Notes under the pieces: generated by a model | What the model was told of the DNA's origin: nothing | Database searches by the model: none | Seen by the model: only the letters and a program-made list of their open reading frames with translations | Assembly (NCBI GenBank): GCA_903916735.1 | Contig: CAIWXX010000064.1 | Coordinates: 1-33,939, forward strand | Source of the DNA: an uncultured Acidobacteriota bacterium | Lineage (GTDB): Bacteria; Acidobacteriota; CAIWXX01 | Reading direction: 5' to 3' | DNA length: 33,939 bases | In this document: positions 25,390-33,939 of the stretch, piece by piece | How positions within the stretch are numbered: the first letter of the stretch is position 1 | How the letters are laid out: the number at the start of each line of letters is the position of its first letter | Position numbers and translations under genes: made by a program

Positions 25390-27030
25390 TCACCTGCCTG
25401 GCGAAGGCGCAGTTGCAGCCAGATCGATGTCGTTTTTCGACAGGATCATTCCGGTTGCCCGTTGGAACTCCACCTGCGCCTTCTGGTAGTTGACGACTGC
25501 GGCCAATTCAGTAGAGCGTGCCGTGAAGTATTCATCCTGACGCTGCAGCACAAGGAAGTTTGTCGATTTTCCTGCTTTGTATTTCTCCACTTCCCCTTCC
25601 ATCATCCTCTGGGCGGCAATCCGCCCCGCGCGCGAGGTTTCAACCAGGATTCCGGTTGACTGGAGTTCCTGCACGGCGTTTCGCACTTCCTGGGCAATCT
25701 CCTTCATCAATTGCTCGCGTTTTGCTTCCTGCTGCTGCTTTTGCAGCGTGGCCTTGGCCCAATTTGCGCTGGCAGTCTTGTTCCCCCAGGGAAACGAAAT
25801 GAGAACTCCAAGCTCAAACTTGGGGAAATCCCAGCCAACCATACTCTTGAATGCATCTCCGTAGCCTCCGACAAACTGCTCAGGCACTTTCCCCAGCATT
25901 TCGGGAACGGCAGTACCGGCAAGAGCCGCGCTGCTTGCCGTTCCAACAAGGTCTACCTGCGGCGTCATCTGATTTCGGAAAAAGCGCACATCCAGTGCGC
26001 TCTGTTCTACCTGCAGGTCCTGCTGCCGGACCTCCGGGCGCTTGTTCAAGGCCAGTTCGATGGCGTCTTGAACGTCTGGTGTAGCCGCCGATCGGTCCGG
26101 AAAAGCCGCCGGTTCCAACCGGGCAAACCAGATGGAATCTGAATGGTCTCTCGTCAACAACGCTTTCAGCGTATCTTCCATCTGAGCGAGTTGTTGCACG
26201 GAGACGACCAGCCAGCCTTTTCTTGTCTCGATGCTCGACTCGTTGGAGCGCAGTTCTATAGCCGCAATCAGGTTCAACCTCACCGCTTCCCGGTTCGCTT
26301 CCAACTGTTCGTAGGAGATCCGCACTGCGTCTTCCTGGTCGCGCACATTCTGGATTGCGCCAAGAAGGTCGAGATAAGTCGTCTGAACCGAATTCACGAT
26401 TGCAATGACTTGCATTTCGAACTGCACGTCGGAGAGCAGGTTGCTCTGTTTCAGACGGGTTACCCGGTAGCGCCCGGAATCGATCGACCCGTTCCGAACC
26501 AGCGGTTGAGTGTAGGTGAAAGACAGGTTCGTGTTGTACTGAGGAGAAAGCGTCTCGAAACTCGCGTTTGTCGTCATTCTCGAATTGTCGAACTCCAGTT
26601 GAAGAGTTCCGCCACCCCAGGGAACGTACTTCAGAAGCGAAAAATCAGCTGCGTACTCATCCTGATCGAACGATCCTTGCGTTCCTCCGCCGCCATAGAT
26701 CGAGGTGACCGGTGTCTTTTCATACAGGCTGTTCAGGCTGAAAGTGCTGGTGTAGTCGTAGTAGCCATCAGCCGAAACGACATCGTAATGGCTGATCTCT
26801 GCGTCCATGCGGAATACGGCAATGTCCGTGTTCTTCTGAAGAGCCAGACCTATCGCCTCGTGCATGTCCAGCGATCTCGTCTGGTCGGCACGAATTCCCG
26901 GCCGAGCCTCAACTCTGTTGACAAAGTCCTGAATCGATTCGCCGGGAGCGACCTCGGGTGCCTGCCCGAGAACCCCTGCTGGAAGAAAAAGGCAAATGAC
27001 GAGAATACAAATGCTTCTGTGCACGAACAT
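25390..27030 (-). CDS. TolC-family outer-membrane efflux protein
   Basis: Forms the outer-membrane and periplasmic exit duct. The start at 27030 gives a signal peptide, SICILVICLFLPAGVLGQ, ending near Gln23-Ala; upstream in-frame ATGs lack one. The mature part has the TolC plan: LDMHEAIGLALQKNTDIAVF at the first helix, extended strands (GTLQLEFDNSRM, NTNLSFTYTQPLVRNG), a coiled-coil half (IRISYEQLEANREAVRLN-like region), and the repeat with AIELALNKRPEVRQQDLQVE and VVNYQKAQVEFQRATGMIL. At 546 residues it is somewhat longer than E. coli TolC (493). First gene of the four-gene export operon. No strong ribosome binding site or promoter is visible before it. Confidence 0.88.
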   Translation of the reverse strand: MFVHRSICILVICLFLPAGVLGQAPEVAPGESIQDFVNRVEARPGIRADQTRSLDMHEAIGLALQKNTDIAVFRMDAEISHYDVVSADGYYDYTSTFSLNSLYEKTPVTSIYGGGGTQGSFDQDEYAADFSLLKYVPWGGGTLQLEFDNSRMTTNASFETLSPQYNTNLSFTYTQPLVRNGSIDSGRYRVTRLKQSNLLSDVQFEMQVIAIVNSVQTTYLDLLGAIQNVRDQEDAVRISYEQLEANREAVRLNLIAAIELRSNESSIETRKGWLVVSVQQLAQMEDTLKALLTRDHSDSIWFARLEPAAFPDRSAATPDVQDAIELALNKRPEVRQQDLQVEQSALDVRFFRNQMTPQVDLVGTASSAALAGTAVPEMLGKVPEQFVGGYGDAFKSMVGWDFPKFELGVLISFPWGNKTASANWAKATLQKQQQEAKREQLMKEIAQEVRNAVQELQSTGILVETSRAGRIAAQRMMEGEVEKYKAGKSTNFLVLQRQDEYFTARSTELAAVVNYQKAQVEFQRATGMILSKNDIDLAATAPSPGR

Positions 27031-27187
27031 GCTGATGCAGCATCGCGGCGCGATTCCACTCAAATTGAGCGTCGAATGTTCTCGAAAAGCGGAGTCCCGG
27101 CCCGATTCCTGGAGCAAACATTTTCGGCTCTCTGCCCTAGACAATGACCGCCGCCTTCCGAGCATCAAATTTCGGGTCAGGATACCA

Positions 27188-27466
27188 GGATATAGGAATA
27201 TCTCCTTTTCCGCTCTGGATGCTCAATTGCCACGAACGTAGTAAATCGATCATCCCCGTGCCGATATCGGCACCCATCCTTCGTCCCCGGGGACGGAGCA
27301 TGGCGCGCCCGGCTGTCATTTTGCGATGATTGAGTGTGAAACACGATCAAAATCTAGACTTGCAGCGGGATTGTGTCAAGTCGAATCGAAAATTGGACAG
27401 ACTCAGCCTGAGAATCCGGATACTTAAAGATAATAGGAATCCGAAAAATCCGGTTGGGGATCGGAA
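27188..27466 (+). repeat. Dispersed non-coding repeat, copy 2
   Basis: The longest copy of the repeat, in the same orientation as copy 3. It starts AGGATATAGGAATATCTCC, has GCTCTGGATGCTCAATTGCC, the palindrome CGTCCCCGGGGACG at 27282-27295, and runs through AAACACGATCAAAATCTAGA and GTCAAGTCGAATCGAAAATT. It ends in GACAGACTCA...GGTTGGGGATCGG, which is also present in copy 1 but cut off in copy 3. It borders the upstream side of the TolC gene. Confidence 0.8.
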
Positions 27467-27831
27467 GAATCTAAAGGGTCCGGTGGCGGGGATCGCGATG
27501 GAAGCTGCAGAACGTCGAAATGGTATTTGATGTGCTTCAATATTTTGACCACCAGATTCGGCTGAGTGCGGAGACGCCGTCTTCTGCTGTATGCTCAGCG
27601 CATGCACTCGATACTTCGGCCGGTAGAAATCGGGCGGAGATACGGCCGATGGAATTCAGCAGTGGCCATGGCGGTGCGGGCAATTGAAGCGAGACGCGAA
27701 CCAATACCGGGCTGGTCGAGCGTCTGTCCAAATTGACGTCGACGCTGCCAAAAGTGACGACACGGTCCGCATCCCCTGATACCCTGTCGTAACATACAGT
27801 GTGGGTCTCTGATTAGCGAATGGAAAAACTC
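27467..27831. other. Stretch without recognised gene
   Basis: Short open frames on the minus strand (27537-27795) show no domain I can recognise and have no clear ribosome binding site. It could be old IS debris. Confidence 0.4.
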
Positions 27832-28215
27832 CTATCCAATCCCCAATGCTTCTCTGGCTACCGCTCGAAAACGACGGCAGCGTTTGCGTCCTTCCAGGGC
27901 AGTTTCCTTTTCGGCGGATTCACCCGGATACCGGAAGGTTACAGAGAAATCGGATAGGTAAGCCAAGTCTTCCCGTAAGAATTCAAACATGGGCCGAATC
28001 GGTAATAGCTTTTCCAGCAGGAAAACGAGATCATGACTTTTTGGCACCGGTAAACCAGTCTCTACTATCTGAGCCTTGAGATACTTTTCGGCGCACTGTT
28101 GCGCGTGGAAACAAACTCCATCGTAATTGGGCTCTTTTCGGACTCGATATTCCCTTTCCATAGTAGAAAAGTCACGCTCCGCCTTTTCAATCCATTCAAG
28201 GGTGAGGGGCTTCAT
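27832..28215 (-). CDS. HEPN-domain protein of a HEPN/MNT pair
   Basis: A 127-residue all-helical HEPN protein of the COG2250 type: WIEKAERDFSTMEREYRV at the start, the conserved CFHAQQCAEKYLKAQIV helix, then GLPVPKSHDLVFLLEKL and YLSDFSVTFRYPGE. HEPN proteins paired with MNT nucleotidyltransferases act as toxin (often an RNase) and antitoxin (which modifies the toxin). The classical RNase motif R-x4-6-H is not obvious; instead there is the RYPGE ending seen in this subfamily, so RNase activity is uncertain. It overlaps the MNT gene by 20 bases with MNT first, which is normal for such pairs. Confidence 0.85.
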   Translation of the reverse strand: MKPLTLEWIEKAERDFSTMEREYRVRKEPNYDGVCFHAQQCAEKYLKAQIVETGLPVPKSHDLVFLLEKLLPIRPMFEFLREDLAYLSDFSVTFRYPGESAEKETALEGRKRCRRFRAVAREALGIG

Positions 28216-28531
28216 AAAGCACCTTTCCCTTCTCCAGTATTTCCTGAATGAAAGAGTCCCCCAGGGATACTCGCTCAGCGATCTTTTCCGGGGTGCGAAC
28301 CAGGATATCGACGGGGAAAGAAGGTTTGATCTTCAACCTTACTTCCACCGCCTTGTCGATTTGCTTTCCCTGATAGGGCATAATAATTAATAGGTCAACA
28401 TCCGAATCTACCGATGGATTACCGTCGGCACAGGACCCAAATAGAATGATTCTATTCGGGTGAAAAGCATCGGCAATTTCCCTGCCCAATTTCTGAATCT
28501 GAGATTCCTCGATAGCCATAGATACGTCCAT
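28196..28531 (-). CDS. MNT-type nucleotidyltransferase (antitoxin of HEPN/MNT)
   Basis: A minimal nucleotidyltransferase of 111 residues. The signature is ILFGSCADGNPSVDSDVDLLII, that is G-S-x-x-x-G with the D-x-D metal pair, and the third acidic residue is in FPVDILV. Family members transfer AMP or another nucleotide to the partner HEPN toxin and so block it. Two starts are possible, 28531 (MDVSMAIEES) and 28519 (MAIEES); neither has a strong ribosome binding site. The pair lies alone between repeat copies 2 and 3. Confidence 0.85.
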   Translation of the reverse strand: MDVSMAIEESQIQKLGREIADAFHPNRIILFGSCADGNPSVDSDVDLLIIMPYQGKQIDKAVEVRLKIKPSFPVDILVRTPEKIAERVSLGDSFIQEILEKGKVLYEAPHP

Positions 28532-28643
28532 TTCGTCTCATAACGAATAGTAGACAAACGCTTTTTTGAATTTCCTAGTACTTTGGGATTATAGCCGCTT
28601 GGAGGGGAACCGTCAACGAACCGTCAACAGCCTTATATCCTAG

Positions 28644-28849
28644 AGGATATAGAAATTTCCTTTTCCGCTCTGGATGCTCAATTGCCACGAACGTAGTAAA
28701 TCGAGCACCACCGAGTCGATATCGGCACCCACCCTTCGTCCCCGGGGACGGAGCATGGCGCGCCCGGCTGTCATTTTGCGATGGTTGAGTGTGAAACACG
28801 ATCAAAATCTAAACTTGCAGCGGGCTTGTGTCAAGTCGAATCTAAAATT
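28644..28849 (+). repeat. Dispersed non-coding repeat, copy 3 (cut by the IS)
   Basis: Matches copy 2 from AGGATATAG through GCTCTGGATGCTCAATTGCC, the palindrome CGTCCCCGGGGACG (28737-28750) and GTCAAGTCGAATCTAAAATT. There similarity stops abruptly at the first base of the IS at 28850. The remaining tail is not found beyond the right end of the element (31463), so the insertion was accompanied by, or followed by, loss of flanking DNA. Confidence 0.8.
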
Positions 28850-28942
28850 CTGAGATTCGGAGTAGAGCCTGAGTGAGTGTCGATGGGCTGGGACAGCGCG
28901 GCGGGGTGAGGTCAGTAGGCCGGGATTGTTGGGAGCAGAGGG

Positions 28943-29804
28943 CTATGCAGTGAGGATTTGGCGGGAGTGTGGTTCGAGTGGGAGCACCCATACGCTTTTG
29001 ATTGGGAGGGCGCATGCGTGGGCGGTGTCGAGCTTGCCGCGCCCCTTGGTGTCGCCCAGGCAGAGCCAGTTGGCGGCCCGGTAGCAGGTGCCGGCGAAGC
29101 GAGGCTTTTCTACAAAGGTCTCGAGCAGGACTGGTTTGTAGCCGTAGCGATGCAGCCACTGGTCTGGGAGTTGGCGTGCAGCGAGCCCGAGGAGCCGGGA
29201 GGCCAGATGCCTGGAGGTGATCCAGGGGAGGATGAGGAACCTCGCGTTGTTGACTACCAGGGGTGCAGGCGAGCAGCGCGTTGATGGTCGGTTCAGCCGA
29301 TGAAGCGGTCACGGGGGACGGTTTTCCATGCGGCTGCGCCGAATCCGAAGAGGGCCAGCGTGCGGCCTTCGGCACGGGCGAAGTAGCGTATCTGGGCGCC
29401 GGGCAGCGGGGCTGGTAGCCCAGATAGTGGTACCGATCGGCGTACTCGTTCCACAGCGCGGACTCGCGCCGGGTAGCCACTGGATCGAGGCGCAGGTCGC
29501 GCAGCTCGCCGGCGGGGACGGCGAATGCAGGCTCCGGCTCGGCCTGCGCCGTGCGGTGCGTGCGCAGCTTGCCGCAGCGGCCTGGGTGGCGCGGTGGCGG
29601 CAGCCGGATGTGTCCGTTGCGATGCATGCGCAGCAGCGCCACCCGGCAGCTCATCTCCTTGAGAGCGCCGTCGGGTTTGCGCCATGAGATCGCCTCGCAC
29701 ACCAGCCGCGAGATAGCCAAACGCGTCAGGCCCGGCTCCTGCCCGGCGATGCGTCGGATGCCATCGAGTTCCGTATCGCTGAAATCCCGGCCGCAGTATT
29801 TCAT
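28943..29804 (-). pseudogene. DUF4338 (DruA-like) protein, decayed
   Basis: A gene of about 287 codons with a good start: ATG at 29804 preceded by GGAGGGG. The N-terminus MKYCGRDFSDTELDGIRRIA, then LAISRLVCEAISWRKPDGAL, and WNEYADRYHYLGYQ match DUF4338, the family of the Druantia defence protein DruA. It continues in other frames with IRYFARAEGRTLALFGFGAA and RDRFIG, then VVNNARFLILPWITSRHLAS and FAGTCYRAANWLCLGDTKGR, ending at 28943. Three lesions are seen: a frameshift near 29418, a TGA where the family has Trp (about 29295), and a frameshift near 29250. It starts 30 bases after the transposase stop, inside the same IS. Confidence 0.75.
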
Positions 29805-29833
29805 CACAAGCACCCCTCCAACCGTGTCCATAT

Positions 29834-31166
29834 TCAGGATGTGTTGGCCCTGGCACGGCACCGCTCCAGCACGCTCTGCGCCGACTCCCCCATGATCGCA
29901 CGCTCACGCACCCCGGCGCCGAGCAGCAGCATCTCACCTCGTAGTTGCGGAAGATCCCGAAGTGCTCCCCGCAGAAGACGACGACCTTGTCGCGGTTGCG
30001 CAGCTCGAGCCGGCGGCGGTAGCGGCTGATGCCGGTTTCCTTGCCTGCGCTCTCGGCCTGCTCGCACTTATGCCGGTGCAGGCGGAACGCGGCCGTCAGC
30101 GCCATGCACAGGAAGACGAACCAGGCGTGGATTCGTACGCCGGCCTCGCTGCGCTTGCGATGGCGCTCCAGAAACCAACTTTCCTTCGCCTCGCGGTTGC
30201 AGCTGTTCTCGATGAGGCTGCGTGAGTCGTAGGCGTCGAACCCGACGAAGGCGCCGGCCGCCCGGGTCGGTATGCAGGAGGACTACCTCCTTCTCGGCTT
30301 CCTTGGGCGCGCCGCGCGATCTCCCGCGCGTCGGCTGTGACCGTCATGTTCGACTTTGCCGGAATGTAGATGATCGCGCTTTTGTCGATCCGCGACAGAA
30401 GCTTCCCGTCCAGGAACCCACGGTCCAGCGCCACAGACCGGATGGTGGCGTACACCTCGACGTTCGTGCACGCCTGAGCCCAGACATCGAACGCGTGCTC
30501 GTTGTCACCCACGTTGATCCCGTCGATCTTCATGGCGAGCGGGATTTTCGACACCGGCTCGAAGACGATCCAGATCTTCCAGCCGAAGACGGCCACCTTT
30601 ATCTTGTGCGCGTGCTTGTTGGCCCGTACATCAGGACGCTTCTCGCGCGTCACGCTCGGCACCTCCAGCCCGTCATCGGTCTTGTACTTCGGCGTCGCCT
30701 CGTCGTCGGTCGCATCCAGCACGGCGTCGATCCGCTTGGGAAACATCCTCTGCGCTGCCAGACACCGGATCGCTCCGTTGAACATCTCCGCCAGCCGTCC
30801 CTCGCCTATCCGCACGATGTTGTCCGCGGCCGTCTCAAACGAAAACGCCCCCCGGATATCCACCGGCCGGGTGCGTCGACTCAGCCCACGCCTGTTGGCG
30901 CCATTGTTCCCCTGCACCGCGTTGAACCCCAGCAACTCCATGAGCCCTTCATCGGTCAGCAACACCTCACGCGTGGCGAGAAGGCTCTGAACTCCACCCA
31001 TGCAACGCATGATCGTGAACAGCACCAACCGGATAAACGGCAGGAGCGGCCTTTCCCGGTCCTTCGGATTCAACGCCTCCAGCAGCGGCCACAAGCCAAC
31101 CTCCCGCATGTAGGCGAAAAACTCGTCAAAGAAGGCCGCCTCGCCCAGCGACTTGACCCTATCCAT
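29834..31166 (-). pseudogene. DDE transposase of the 28850-31462 element, frameshifted
   Basis: The first 270 or so residues are open: FFAYMREVGLWPLLEALNPK, the first catalytic Asp region AVLDATDDEATPKYKTDDG, and the second Asp region RSVALDRGFLDGKLLSRIDK. The Glu region, SLIENSCNREAKESWFLERH, follows in another frame. The tail AWFVFLCMALTAAFRLHRHK, then AGKETGISRYRRRLELRNRD and EHFGIFRNYE, is in that frame, and the end (RERAIMGESAQSVLERCRA) is in yet another. Frameshifts are placed near 30320, 30260 and 29945. The reconstructed enzyme of about 440 residues resembles IS4-superfamily DDE transposases. Neighbouring host genes are intact, so true decay is likelier than sequencing error. Confidence 0.7.
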
Positions 31167-31308
31167 ACGTGCGCGTCCGCTGCAACTCCTCTGCCACCGC
31201 CATATCGTTGCGCGTCGCCGTCTGCCAGCAGGACAGCTCCGCCAGCCTCGTTTCCAGATTCTCCTTGCGGGCTGCTCCTCGATCCACGCCTGCTAGAATA
31301 CACGCCAT
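31159..31308 (-). CDS. Small 49-codon frame overlapping the transposase start
   Basis: ATG at 31308 opens a frame with ENLETRLAELSCWQTATRND and MAVAEELQRTRTYG that ends in TAG at 31159, overlapping the transposase ATG by eight bases (TATGGATAG). The sequence is helical and charged and looks protein-like. GAGGAG lies inside it about 20 bases before the transposase start. It may be a leader frame coupling translation of the transposase, or the remnant of an N-terminal part. Function unknown. Confidence 0.35.
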   Translation of the reverse strand: MACILAGVDRGAARKENLETRLAELSCWQTATRNDMAVAEELQRTRTYG

Positions 31309-31462
31309 TGGCAAATGTGTCCGGCTCTTTCTTTCTACCTCCTGCCGCCCACTGCCAGGCCCCCCTCCTCGTACCAGGCCCTCTTGCGCTCTGCTCAGCG
31401 CTGCGCGAGGCGTAAGATAGCCGCTGCCGCCTGCTTCGGCTCGCCGTTACTCCGAATCTCAG

Positions 31463-31774
31463 AGGGTATCGCATTCGTTGACTTTTCGCTCCTCAGGAAC
31501 TACCTTTATGAGCAGAGCAATGCCATGGAGGGTAAGGGGAGGCGCTGCCGCCTCCGAAACAGGGCCCTTTCTCGACGGAGACCACAGATTCCGTCAACAA
31601 ACTGGCCGTTTGTACGAGAATCCAGAGTAGCAGGGAAACGCATGTCAGAGGGCGACATCGACGACGCTTTCTCGATAGCGGTTGTCAATTCCTGATGCCG
31701 GGGAGCGTTGATTGACGAGCGATCACGAGGCGTTCGAATCCATAGAGTCATAAGCATCACAAGGAGGCATCACA
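31463..31774. other. Intergenic stretch upstream of the cysteine protease
   Basis: No gene recognised. A small hairpin GGAGGC (31538-31543) and GCCTCC (31550-31555) is present. The last 15 bases hold the ribosome binding site AAGGAGG of the protease gene. The promoter should lie here, but no clear box pair is visible. Confidence 0.4.
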
Positions 31775-33235
31775 ATGCGTAGGAAGGACGGAAGTCCTCA
31801 TGGGATTCTGGTGCTGGCAGTTGTAGCCGGGCTTTTGCTGCTTTGCGCATCGACTCTCATCGCGCAGGAGAAGATCGTTCCCAGCAAGGCTCCATTGAAC
31901 CCGGAATTCCTGAGGTACATGCAGGCGCGTGCCGAGGGGAGGGTCCAGCAATACACACCTGGCGGCATGCCGCTCGGGCACATCCCTGCACCGCTCGATC
32001 TGTCGTACATGAAAGGCATGCAGGTCTTCCCGGCCCGGGCGAAGTCGATTCCCGCAACCTACGACCTTCGCACGAAGAATAAGCTAACCCCAGTCAAGGA
32101 CCAGGGGCAGTGCGGGTCGTGCTGGGCGTTCGCCACATTCGGATCAGGCGAATCCTGGCTCAAGCCCGGGGAATCACGTGATTTCGCCGAATGGCACATG
32201 TGCCAGAACCACGGATGGGACTGGACATCGTGCGAGGGCGGTAACTCATGCCTCGCCACGGCGTATCTCGCCCAGTGGAAAGGACCCTATAACGAAACGG
32301 ATTTTCCGTATCCCTACTACGTCGAGCTGGGTCACGACGCTGCCATCCAGAAGCACGTCCAGGATGTCTACTGGCTCCCGGGCCGCGCGAGCTACACCGC
32401 CAACGACACGGTCAAGAAGGCGGTCATGGACTACGGAGCCGTTACCATTGATTTCTTCGTCGATGACACACCGTCCAAGTACTTTAACGCCGACCGGACC
32501 ACCTACTACATGAACGTCGTGTCCGATGGGACGAATCACGAGGTTTGCATCGTGGGGTGGGACAACAACTACAGCAAGACCCGGTTCTACCATCAAGCCC
32601 CTGGCAACGGCGCCTTCATCATAAGGAACAGCTGGGGCACGGCCTATCACGACGACGGCTACTTCTACATGTCTTACTACGACAAGAACCTGAAACTCGG
32701 CGCCTGCTTCAACGGCTTCAAGGCTACCGACAACTTCGGAGGCTTCTACTACGTCGATCCGCTCGGGTGCATCAACTTCAGTGGCTATGGCACAACGACC
32801 GCGTGGGGCGCCAATGTCTTCAAGGCGACCAGCACGGCCAGACCGATCAAGGCGGTCAGCACGTACTTCGCGGTGCCGAACACGGCCTATCAGATCTACG
32901 TCTACAACAACGTGACATCTACCACCAACCCCAGAACCGGCACGCTCTTGGTGAGTAAAACCGGAACGCAGAGCCTTCCGGGTTATCACACGATCACCCT
33001 GCCTACCCAAGCGGCGATCACGGCTGGGAAGAAATTCTCTGTGGTCATCAAGTACACGACCCCTGGATACAACTATCCGGTCCCGATTGAGTATAAGTAC
33101 GCGGGCCTGACGAGCAAGGCGACAGCGAAGCCTCAGGAGAGCTACATGAGCTCCAACGGGACCTCTTGGGCGGATACCACCACCTACGATAAGACGGAGA
33201 ACGTCTGCATCAAGGCTTTCGACGTAAAGAGGTGA
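31775..33235 (+). CDS. Secreted papain-family (C1A) cysteine protease with C-terminal lectin-like domain
   Basis: A 486-residue exported protease. Residues 1-31 are a signal peptide (RRKDGSPHG, then ILVLAVVAGLLLLCASTLIA). After a short propeptide the mature enzyme starts near PATYDLRTKNKLTPVKDQ. Active-site residues are Gln110 and Cys116 in KDQGQCGSCWAF, His255 in TNHEVCIVGWD, and Asn285 in IIRNSWGTAYHDDGYFYMSY. From about 310 a beta-rich region (GCINFSGYGTTTAWGANVFK, TAYQIYVYNNVTS) resembles the lectin-like domain found after bacterial C1A proteases. It probably digests proteins in the periplasm or outside. A strong AAGGAGG lies nine bases before the ATG. It stands alone, with no inhibitor gene next to it. 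Confidence 0.9.
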   Translation: MRRKDGSPHGILVLAVVAGLLLLCASTLIAQEKIVPSKAPLNPEFLRYMQARAEGRVQQYTPGGMPLGHIPAPLDLSYMKGMQVFPARAKSIPATYDLRTKNKLTPVKDQGQCGSCWAFATFGSGESWLKPGESRDFAEWHMCQNHGWDWTSCEGGNSCLATAYLAQWKGPYNETDFPYPYYVELGHDAAIQKHVQDVYWLPGRASYTANDTVKKAVMDYGAVTIDFFVDDTPSKYFNADRTTYYMNVVSDGTNHEVCIVGWDNNYSKTRFYHQAPGNGAFIIRNSWGTAYHDDGYFYMSYYDKNLKLGACFNGFKATDNFGGFYYVDPLGCINFSGYGTTTAWGANVFKATSTARPIKAVSTYFAVPNTAYQIYVYNNVTSTTNPRTGTLLVSKTGTQSLPGYHTITLPTQAAITAGKKFSVVIKYTTPGYNYPVPIEYKYAGLTSKATAKPQESYMSSNGTSWADTTTYDKTENVCIKAFDVKR

Positions 33236-33289
33236 GCTGAGTCAGCGCACACCGCTCTCCTGATCGCTTCGTGTCATGGGTTATGCGGC

Positions 33290-33601
33290 CTAACAGCTGG
33301 GGAGCGCTTTCTGACGAGGCTTGTTACAGGTGGTTCGGTAGTTGTTGAACAAACCAAACCTTGCATATAGTCCAGCCGTACTCCACCTCTTCCACCCATA
33401 GCCTCCACGCTTCTGGGCGTACGTGATGTGCCGTCGGATTTTCTTCTCGACCCAGAGGCGCAGATTGGAGAAGCACCGGCTTGAATGACCAATGGCGAAG
33501 TAGTTGACCCAGCCTTTGAGCTTCGGGTTGATCTCTGCGATCACCTTTTGCACGGGCTGGGATCTGTGTCTCCGGAAGACCTTCTTCAATATAAGACGCA
33601 C
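33290..33601 (-). pseudogene. C-terminal (maturase) fragment of a group II intron reverse transcriptase
   Basis: The 103-residue frame reads VIAEINPKLKGWVNYFAIGH, FSNLRLWVEKKIRRHITYAQ and KRGGYGWKRWSTAGLYARF. This is the GIIM/X maturase domain at the end of group II intron-encoded proteins (INPxLxGWxNYF, then W-x-x-x-KxxR). The reverse transcriptase catalytic part with YADD is absent. A domain V hairpin is not evident in the following 60 bases. It is an intron relic. Confidence 0.75.
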
Positions 33602-33662
33602 GACCGTGTCTTTACATTTTACATTTATTGACGACCGCTTCCGTTCCCGTTAGACTGGGACA

Positions 33663-33939
33663 ATGAGCCGCGCGACCAGGGTTGAAATCAAGGGGGCGAT
33701 GTACCATGTCATGACGAGAGGCGTGGCTCGGATGCCGGTCTTTCTCGACGATACAGACCGGACCGATTTTCTGGACCGAGTGGGCGGACTGGTTGGGTGC
33801 GGCGATATCGTGATTCACGCCTTCTGCCTGATGCCGAATCACTACCACCTGCTGTGCGAGACGCCGCACGCGAGATTGTCGATGCTGCTCAGACATATCA
33901 ATGGAGACTATGCGCGCGTATTCAATAACCGTCGCCGTC
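33663..33939 (+). CDS. REP-associated tyrosine (Y1, IS200-like) transposase, partial
   Basis: The frame opens at ATG 33663 and runs off the window. It reads SRATRVEIKGAMYHVMTRGV, VFLDDTDRTDFLDRV and AFCLMPNHYHLLCETPHARL, then LLRHINGDYARVFNNR. HYH in PNHYHLL is the HUH metal-binding motif; the catalytic tyrosine region lies beyond the window. The opening x-x-YHVxxRG and the FCLMPNHYHLL block are typical of RAYT proteins, which recognise REP-type palindromes. AT-rich sequence with repeated TTTACATT precedes it (33611-33628). Confidence 0.88.
   Translation, partial: MSRATRVEIKGAMYHVMTRGVARMPVFLDDTDRTDFLDRVGGLVGCGDIVIHAFCLMPNHYHLLCETPHARLSMLLRHINGDYARVFNNRRR

Follow-up and report, generated by a model that had tools for sequence, protein, structure and literature searches.

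Genes of the DUF4338 family (PF14236) are recurrent companions of transposases, together with which they have moved inside shared ends across several insertion sequence (IS) families. One such element, now decayed, lies in the window, the whole 33,939-nucleotide stretch of DNA from an uncultured Acidobacteriota bacterium that was analysed. With moderate confidence, we read it as a two-gene DDE IS in which the second gene encodes a dedicated accessory acyltransferase of the Mom kind, perhaps acting on DNA bases. This reading is based on co-mobility, tight linkage across transposase families, fusion, purifying selection, a GNAT prediction and a Mom-like motif; catalysis, DNA as the substrate and a benefit to transposition are what we infer. 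The window carries the following features of the element and of a short derivative.

28849–28864, plus strand: left terminal inverted repeat, 16 bp, DruA-distal end
31448–31463, minus strand: right terminal inverted repeat, 16 bp, transposase promoter end
28850–31462, minus strand: degenerate two-gene insertion sequence, 2613 bp compared with 2822 bp in the copy on contig C127
29831–31287, minus strand: transposase pseudogene (DDE_Tnp_1), frameshifted and with a 242-bp internal deletion; C127 homologue of 564 aa
28943–29804, minus strand: DUF4338/DruA-type accessory pseudogene with two frameshifts; C127 homologue of 285 aa
13381–13540, plus strand: 160-bp MITE-like internal-deletion derivative of the window IS, without genes

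The window element is a real insertion sequence that has decayed. The original prediction described 15-bp inverted repeats enclosing a DDE transposase gene and, 30 bp downstream in the same direction, a DUF4338 gene. The enclosure and the common orientation are borne out, while the repeats (28849–28864 and 31448–31463) measure 16 bp with 100% complementarity and the two remnants are 26 bp apart, wider than the 6 bp of the C127 copy because of a 20-bp insertion. Both genes are pseudogenes disrupted by frameshifting small insertions, and the copy is dead. The transposase remnant scores 21.7 bits against Pfam DDE_Tnp_1, under the 23-bit cut-off, and the DUF4338 remnant is detected in two pieces (29012–29260 and 29263–29409); both family assignments hold, as seen in the intact C127 copy, to which the window IS is 85.9% identical. 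The 15-mer CTGAGATTYGGAGTA, allowing at most one mismatch, occurs at 8 sites in the 5.37-Mb genome as compared with 0 for a reversed control pattern, and all eight are ends of the window-type element or its relatives. The 160-bp derivative consists of 42 bp of one IS end and 101 bp of the other, with both 15-bp ends perfect. No target-site duplication was found at the derivative or at the window IS copy.

A search for further full copies recovered an intact one of 2822 bp, with shared ends and both genes, on contig C127 of the same genome. Its transposase of 564 aa scores 29.7 bits against PF01609 (cut-off 23), and its DUF4338 protein of 285 aa, encoded 6 bp downstream, scores 145.1 bits against PF14236 (threshold 27) over model positions 44–227 of 297. 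The focal transposase matches PF01609 only, and the IS66 domain (DDE_Tnp_IS66) is absent from it. The terminal repeats of this copy are 15-bp ends with one Y variant. It is flanked on both sides by an 8-bp target duplication, GTGTGGAC, and rejoining the flanks into an empty site restores the interrupted ORF; the two genes therefore moved together.

The gene is nevertheless an optional accessory of the window IS family, since related transposases without DruA exist. Contig C49 of the same genome carries a decayed transposase with 54–64% amino acid identity to the window family, preceded by a DUF6788 gene (PF20586) and followed by an IS-type 3' end, and no DruA/DUF4338 gene was found there. A copy with the same ends but no DUF4338 had been named as the case that would expose a chance insertion. 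C49 does lack the gene, but it is diverged, its 3' end differs from the family ends at 1 of 15 positions, and the 43- and 80-locus samples described below argue that the gene is no chance insertion. Of 297 genomes from the phylum, only its own yielded a match to the focal transposase family, which was not found beyond that genome among 99 relatives, nor in plasmids or viral contigs. Because it is so rare, the count of DUF4338 pairing that the original prediction called for rests on other IS families.

In that count, a DUF4338 gene was taken as linked when a transposase lay within 300 bp on the same strand or was fused to it. PF14236 is present in 26 of the 297 phylum genomes, where 34 of 43 loci are linked or fused (own genome included). 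Across phyla, 72 of 80 loci are linked or fused, these being the best 80 of at least 587 matches and leaning towards the query type. By comparison, only 5 of 181 control ORFs from the same loci are linked to a transposase. The count as a whole leaves aside the window's own broken copy as well as L019 and L089, whose PF14236 matches are too weak for the profile. Three of the eight unlinked cross-phylum loci do have a transposase, at a contig edge (L108), split (L154) or 448 bp away (L143), and none was found in the DNA around the other five (L142, L157, L161, L167 and L170). The exemplar transposases were taken partly from the scored loci, and the listed ones were then tested against Pfam, the exceptions being L069 and some later ones (e.g., L096, L112, L118, L122 and L150).

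The Pfam-tested partners comprise PF03050 IS66 (five proteins), PF01609, PF14706/PF02281 Tn5, PF13808 ISAs1, PF13546, PF05598 and PF14104. The families represented include IS66, Tn5-like, ISAs1 and IS4-like ones among other DDE families. We presume that IS701, IS1634, IS1182 and IS630 are the family labels of partner transposases, the domains being what was tested; one interrupted gene is putatively IS630-like. The DUF4338 gene, upstream or downstream of the transposase gene, often overlaps it by 4 bp (start/stop). In the L017-type IS66 loci, the order is a tnpA-like ORF, TnpB (PF05717), DruA and TnpC. Among the closest relatives of L017 TnpC (at least 39% identity over a long stretch; own-genome C72 included, own-genome fragments C91, C15 and C9 left out), DruA is present at 10 of 12 places and missing at L204 and L206. 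Furthermore, single-ORF fusions of PF14236 with a transposase are confirmed by Pfam at L066, L067, L074 and L082, and the ISAs1 fusion L082 retains the GNAT part without the N-terminal domain. An independently annotated example of fusion is a plasmid gene (L243:3971–5305) that is annotated as an ISAs1 family transposase and contains a DruA-type domain.

Shared ends were read at several of these loci. Acididesulfobacillus acetoxydans has two 2714-bp copies (L151 and L152) that are 99.7% identical; inverted ends enclose an IS66-type TnpC and DruA, and the repeats TTATTACT and GGTAACGG, each of 8 bp, were read off the flanking sequence. Three copies on one Arenicellales chromosome (L137, L140 and L156) have a 13–16-bp terminal inverted repeat in common; L137 has an 8-bp target-site duplication, AACTAGTG, and no target duplication was found at L140 or L156. 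L072 and L074 have a 2327-bp unit in common that carries the fused ORF. That ISs spread DUF4338, as had been suggested, is thus borne out: in several IS families the gene has travelled between common ends. IS66-type and other DDE ISs with accessory genes share with these elements terminal inverted repeats, an 8-bp target-site duplication and a tightly packed accessory ORF and transposase. The DUF4338 accessory differs from IS66-type accessory genes in its GNAT fold and in being shared by several DDE families that are unrelated to one another; the focal element also has a PF01609 transposase and not an IS66 one.

A tree built from 105 DruA domains shows clustering by partner class (0 of 200 shuffles as low), yet 20 changes are required; this is a quick tree with several long branches, from which domains under 200 aa and the duplicates L092, L093 and L111 were left out. 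The clustering and the changes fit partnerships that are stable but have repeatedly been exchanged among IS families. The dN/dS values of DruA are 0.08–0.28 in 15 of 16 pairs, dS being saturated in the remaining pair; these values show purifying selection.

Mom is the phage Mu enzyme that modifies DNA bases by acyl transfer, its family being marked by adenine modification, and several comparisons place the IS-type protein close to it. In the structure model of the L101 IS-type DruA (pLDDT 88.9), a GNAT domain follows a helical N-terminal one. Against 350,542 chains in Foldseek, Mu Mom (8bv8) takes ranks 1–2, with an E value of 1.4e-6 at rank 1, and RNA cytidine acetyltransferases take ranks 3–5 and 7; in VIA, 8bv8 is at rank 1 (Z 14.4, rmsd 3.5, 165 aligned residues) and the next entry has a Z of 12.9. 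The GNAT superfamily is huge, and many protein and small-molecule acetyltransferases follow Mom closely in Z. The Mom PHROG is matched by 34 of 37 IS-type members (best 2.2e-7) with no competing family, and hhalign of the profile of 37 IS-type proteins against eight phage Mom proteins gives an E value of 3.5e-6 over 164 columns. Among proteins in which the columns are covered, residues aligned to the Mom-invariant H48, Y49, R101, Y149 and N153 are all present in 24 of 30 phylum-sample proteins and in 77 of 79 cross-phylum proteins. In the cross-phylum sample, though not in the phylum sample, the scan pattern itself partly imposes columns Y, A, N and W. The fused lineage L072/L074 has HP and F in place of HY and Y.

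The Mom family (PHROG 1384, PF25680, PDB 8bv8) and the IS-type protein thus have in common the GNAT fold, the motif H-Y...R...[ST]F[AV][DE]...GTxYxAxN[WF] and partnership with a transposing element. They differ in that identity in the profile alignment is about 20%, that IS-type proteins score 12.5–18.9 bits against Pfam Mom, below the cut-off of 27.1, and that the IS-type protein has an extra N-terminal helical domain, a gene adjoining or fused to an IS transposase, and an activity that is predicted. Folded alone, the N-terminal domain gives weak matches of the HTH type (LexA Z 5.2 at most; Foldseek best E 1.0), and we read it as probably a winged helix. The DruA profile gave chance-level matches only (E 0.06 or worse) against the sequences of solved structures, and no relatives of the C127 DruA were found in 50,697 phage records. 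PMC10853773 describes DUF4338 as a GNAT domain fused to DndF, an assignment to the GNAT superfamily made independently of ours; the setting of that description is phosphorothioate defence and not insertion sequences.

DUF4338 had also been said to include DruA of the Druantia anti-phage system. This is correct at the level of the Pfam family, which Druantia type I DruA (PF14236) has in common with the IS-type, and the two profiles match with an E value of 6e-9 over 87 columns; the IS-type protein is, however, not Druantia DruA as such. Druantia-type DruA is about 410 aa long, aligns over the entire Pfam model, stands beside large helicases (some of these proteins are annotated as Druantia beside very large helicases) and is without the Mom-type motif, whereas the IS-type is about 285 aa long, aligns to part of the model only and has a different N-terminal domain. 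The IS-type form matches PADLOC DruA in part (18.4 bits, positions 123–174 of 407) and, with partial PADLOC and Pfam matches, lacks the full-length DruA architecture. At the IS loci read, neither druB–druE nor a large helicase was found, the neighbours being transposases and IS boundaries. These observations give no support to a role of the IS form in defence. Druantia-type DruA has no link to the Mom profile (E 0.029), and none of six Druantia-type proteins matched the Mom PHROG. Since the IS-type is linked to both Mom and Druantia DruA while Druantia DruA has no link to Mom, the IS-type sits between them. This pattern would fit a path to Druantia along which the Mom-type motif was lost, and the IS-linked form fits, without proving, recruitment from a mobile element to defence. 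The original prediction of a transposition accessory later recruited to defence is accordingly well supported in its first part, by linkage, fusions and shared ends, and in its second part compatible with the comparison of sequences.

Three other arrangements involving DUF4338 were noted. At L052 (4884–9013), a full-length DUF4338 gene precedes genes for NurA (PF09376) and a HerA-type ATPase (PF01935), and large ORFs are similarly placed at L053 and L054; this layout is possibly a further DUF4338 defence arrangement. At L079 (4788–8528), an IS-type-like DUF4338 gene has no transposase, and directly after it come two ORFs, of 352 and 581 aa, that lack a Pfam match. On the Pseudomonas putida plasmid pKF715A (L241:1785–5685), an annotated Druantia DruA has an IS66 element (TnpB, TnpC) upstream of it, at a distance of about 440 bp.

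The linkage and fusions would be equally expected if the protein were a dedicated IS accessory that tunes transposition by using its GNAT domain to acetylate a host factor or the transposase, and most GNAT neighbours in the fold list are indeed protein or small-molecule acetyltransferases. As a DNA-base modifier heads the fold and profile matches, followed by RNA-base acetyltransferases, and the Mom-type motif is kept, we regard protein acetylation as somewhat unlikely. We judge it quite improbable that the protein lacks catalysis and serves as a regulator binding DNA or as a cofactor at the ends, built of a winged helix and a degenerate GNAT scaffold and comparable to TnpB of IS66. The HTH-type best matches of the helical N-terminal domain, the position of the accessory between tnpB and tnpC in IS66-type loci and the loss of motif residues in L072/L074 speak for such a role; but most members keep these residues, and fusion L082 has dispensed with the N-terminal part while keeping the GNAT part.

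A DruA-like passenger defence gene, useful to the host and carried along by ISs, would account for the Pfam family and the 87-column profile similarity (E 6e-9) to Druantia-type DruA. This explanation is very improbable, as no DruB–E genes adjoin the IS-type gene at the IS loci read, the gene is translationally overlapped with transposases or fused to them, and Druantia-type DruA has neither the Mom-type motif nor the N-terminal domain. As for chance insertion of a DUF4338 gene into one IS, the C49 relative, with its matching 3' end and no DUF4338, is what such an event would leave; the explanation retains next to no probability and is already refuted as a general account by the linkage counts (34 of 43 and 72 of 80 loci), the many IS families, the fusions and purifying selection.

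On the favoured reading of a Mom-kind accessory, the protein would combine an N-terminal helical, probably winged-helix, DNA-binding domain with a following GNAT-fold acyltransferase domain, and would be made together with the transposase, as the 6-bp gap in C127 and the 4-bp overlaps and fusions elsewhere suggest. It would most likely work on DNA at or near the element, moving an acyl group onto a base as Mom does. Such a modification could protect newly made or excised DNA of the element against host nucleases, or change how the transposase recognises the ends. More tentatively, a large unrecognised class of ISs from several unrelated DDE families may carry a Mom-type DNA-base acyltransferase, with chemical marking of DNA serving transposition or protection of the element and with Druantia DruA as a defence-side derivative without the Mom-type motif.

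No report of DUF4338 in insertion sequences was found in the open-access literature searched; new here are the fusions, the link to Mom and how broadly DUF4338 genes associate with transposases. Annotation routinely assigns DUF4338 genes to the Druantia anti-phage system; since most of those in our samples sit in ISs, many of these annotations are probably misleading. The resemblance to Mom in fold and motif provides a concrete, testable biochemical prediction for DUF4338, and suggests that DNA-modifying enzymes may be carried by ordinary ISs as well as by transposing phages such as Mu. It also offers a candidate origin for DruA.

The surroundings of the window IS hold further features. A dispersed repeat of about 205 bp occurs at 28644–28848, 27187–27393 and 1081–1287, and, counting the repeat itself, the genome has 27 places that match it over at least 140 bp. 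In 14 of 15 other copies read, it runs on into a GGACAGACT-like stretch, which beside the IS is cut at 28850 by the IS end and is not resumed beyond the IS; the junction thus lies inside a repeat copy and involves a rearrangement. An Rfam scan of 26000–33939 gave no match, the repeat copies there included. A C-terminal fragment of a group II intron maturase (PF08388) lies at 33290–33601, with no Rfam intron match in the same scanned region. Two overlapping minus-strand ORFs beside the IS (27832–28531) are presumably HEPN/MNT nucleotidyltransferase toxin–antitoxin-like genes, and the ORF at 31775–33235 is one that we take to resemble a papain-type cysteine protease with a signal peptide.
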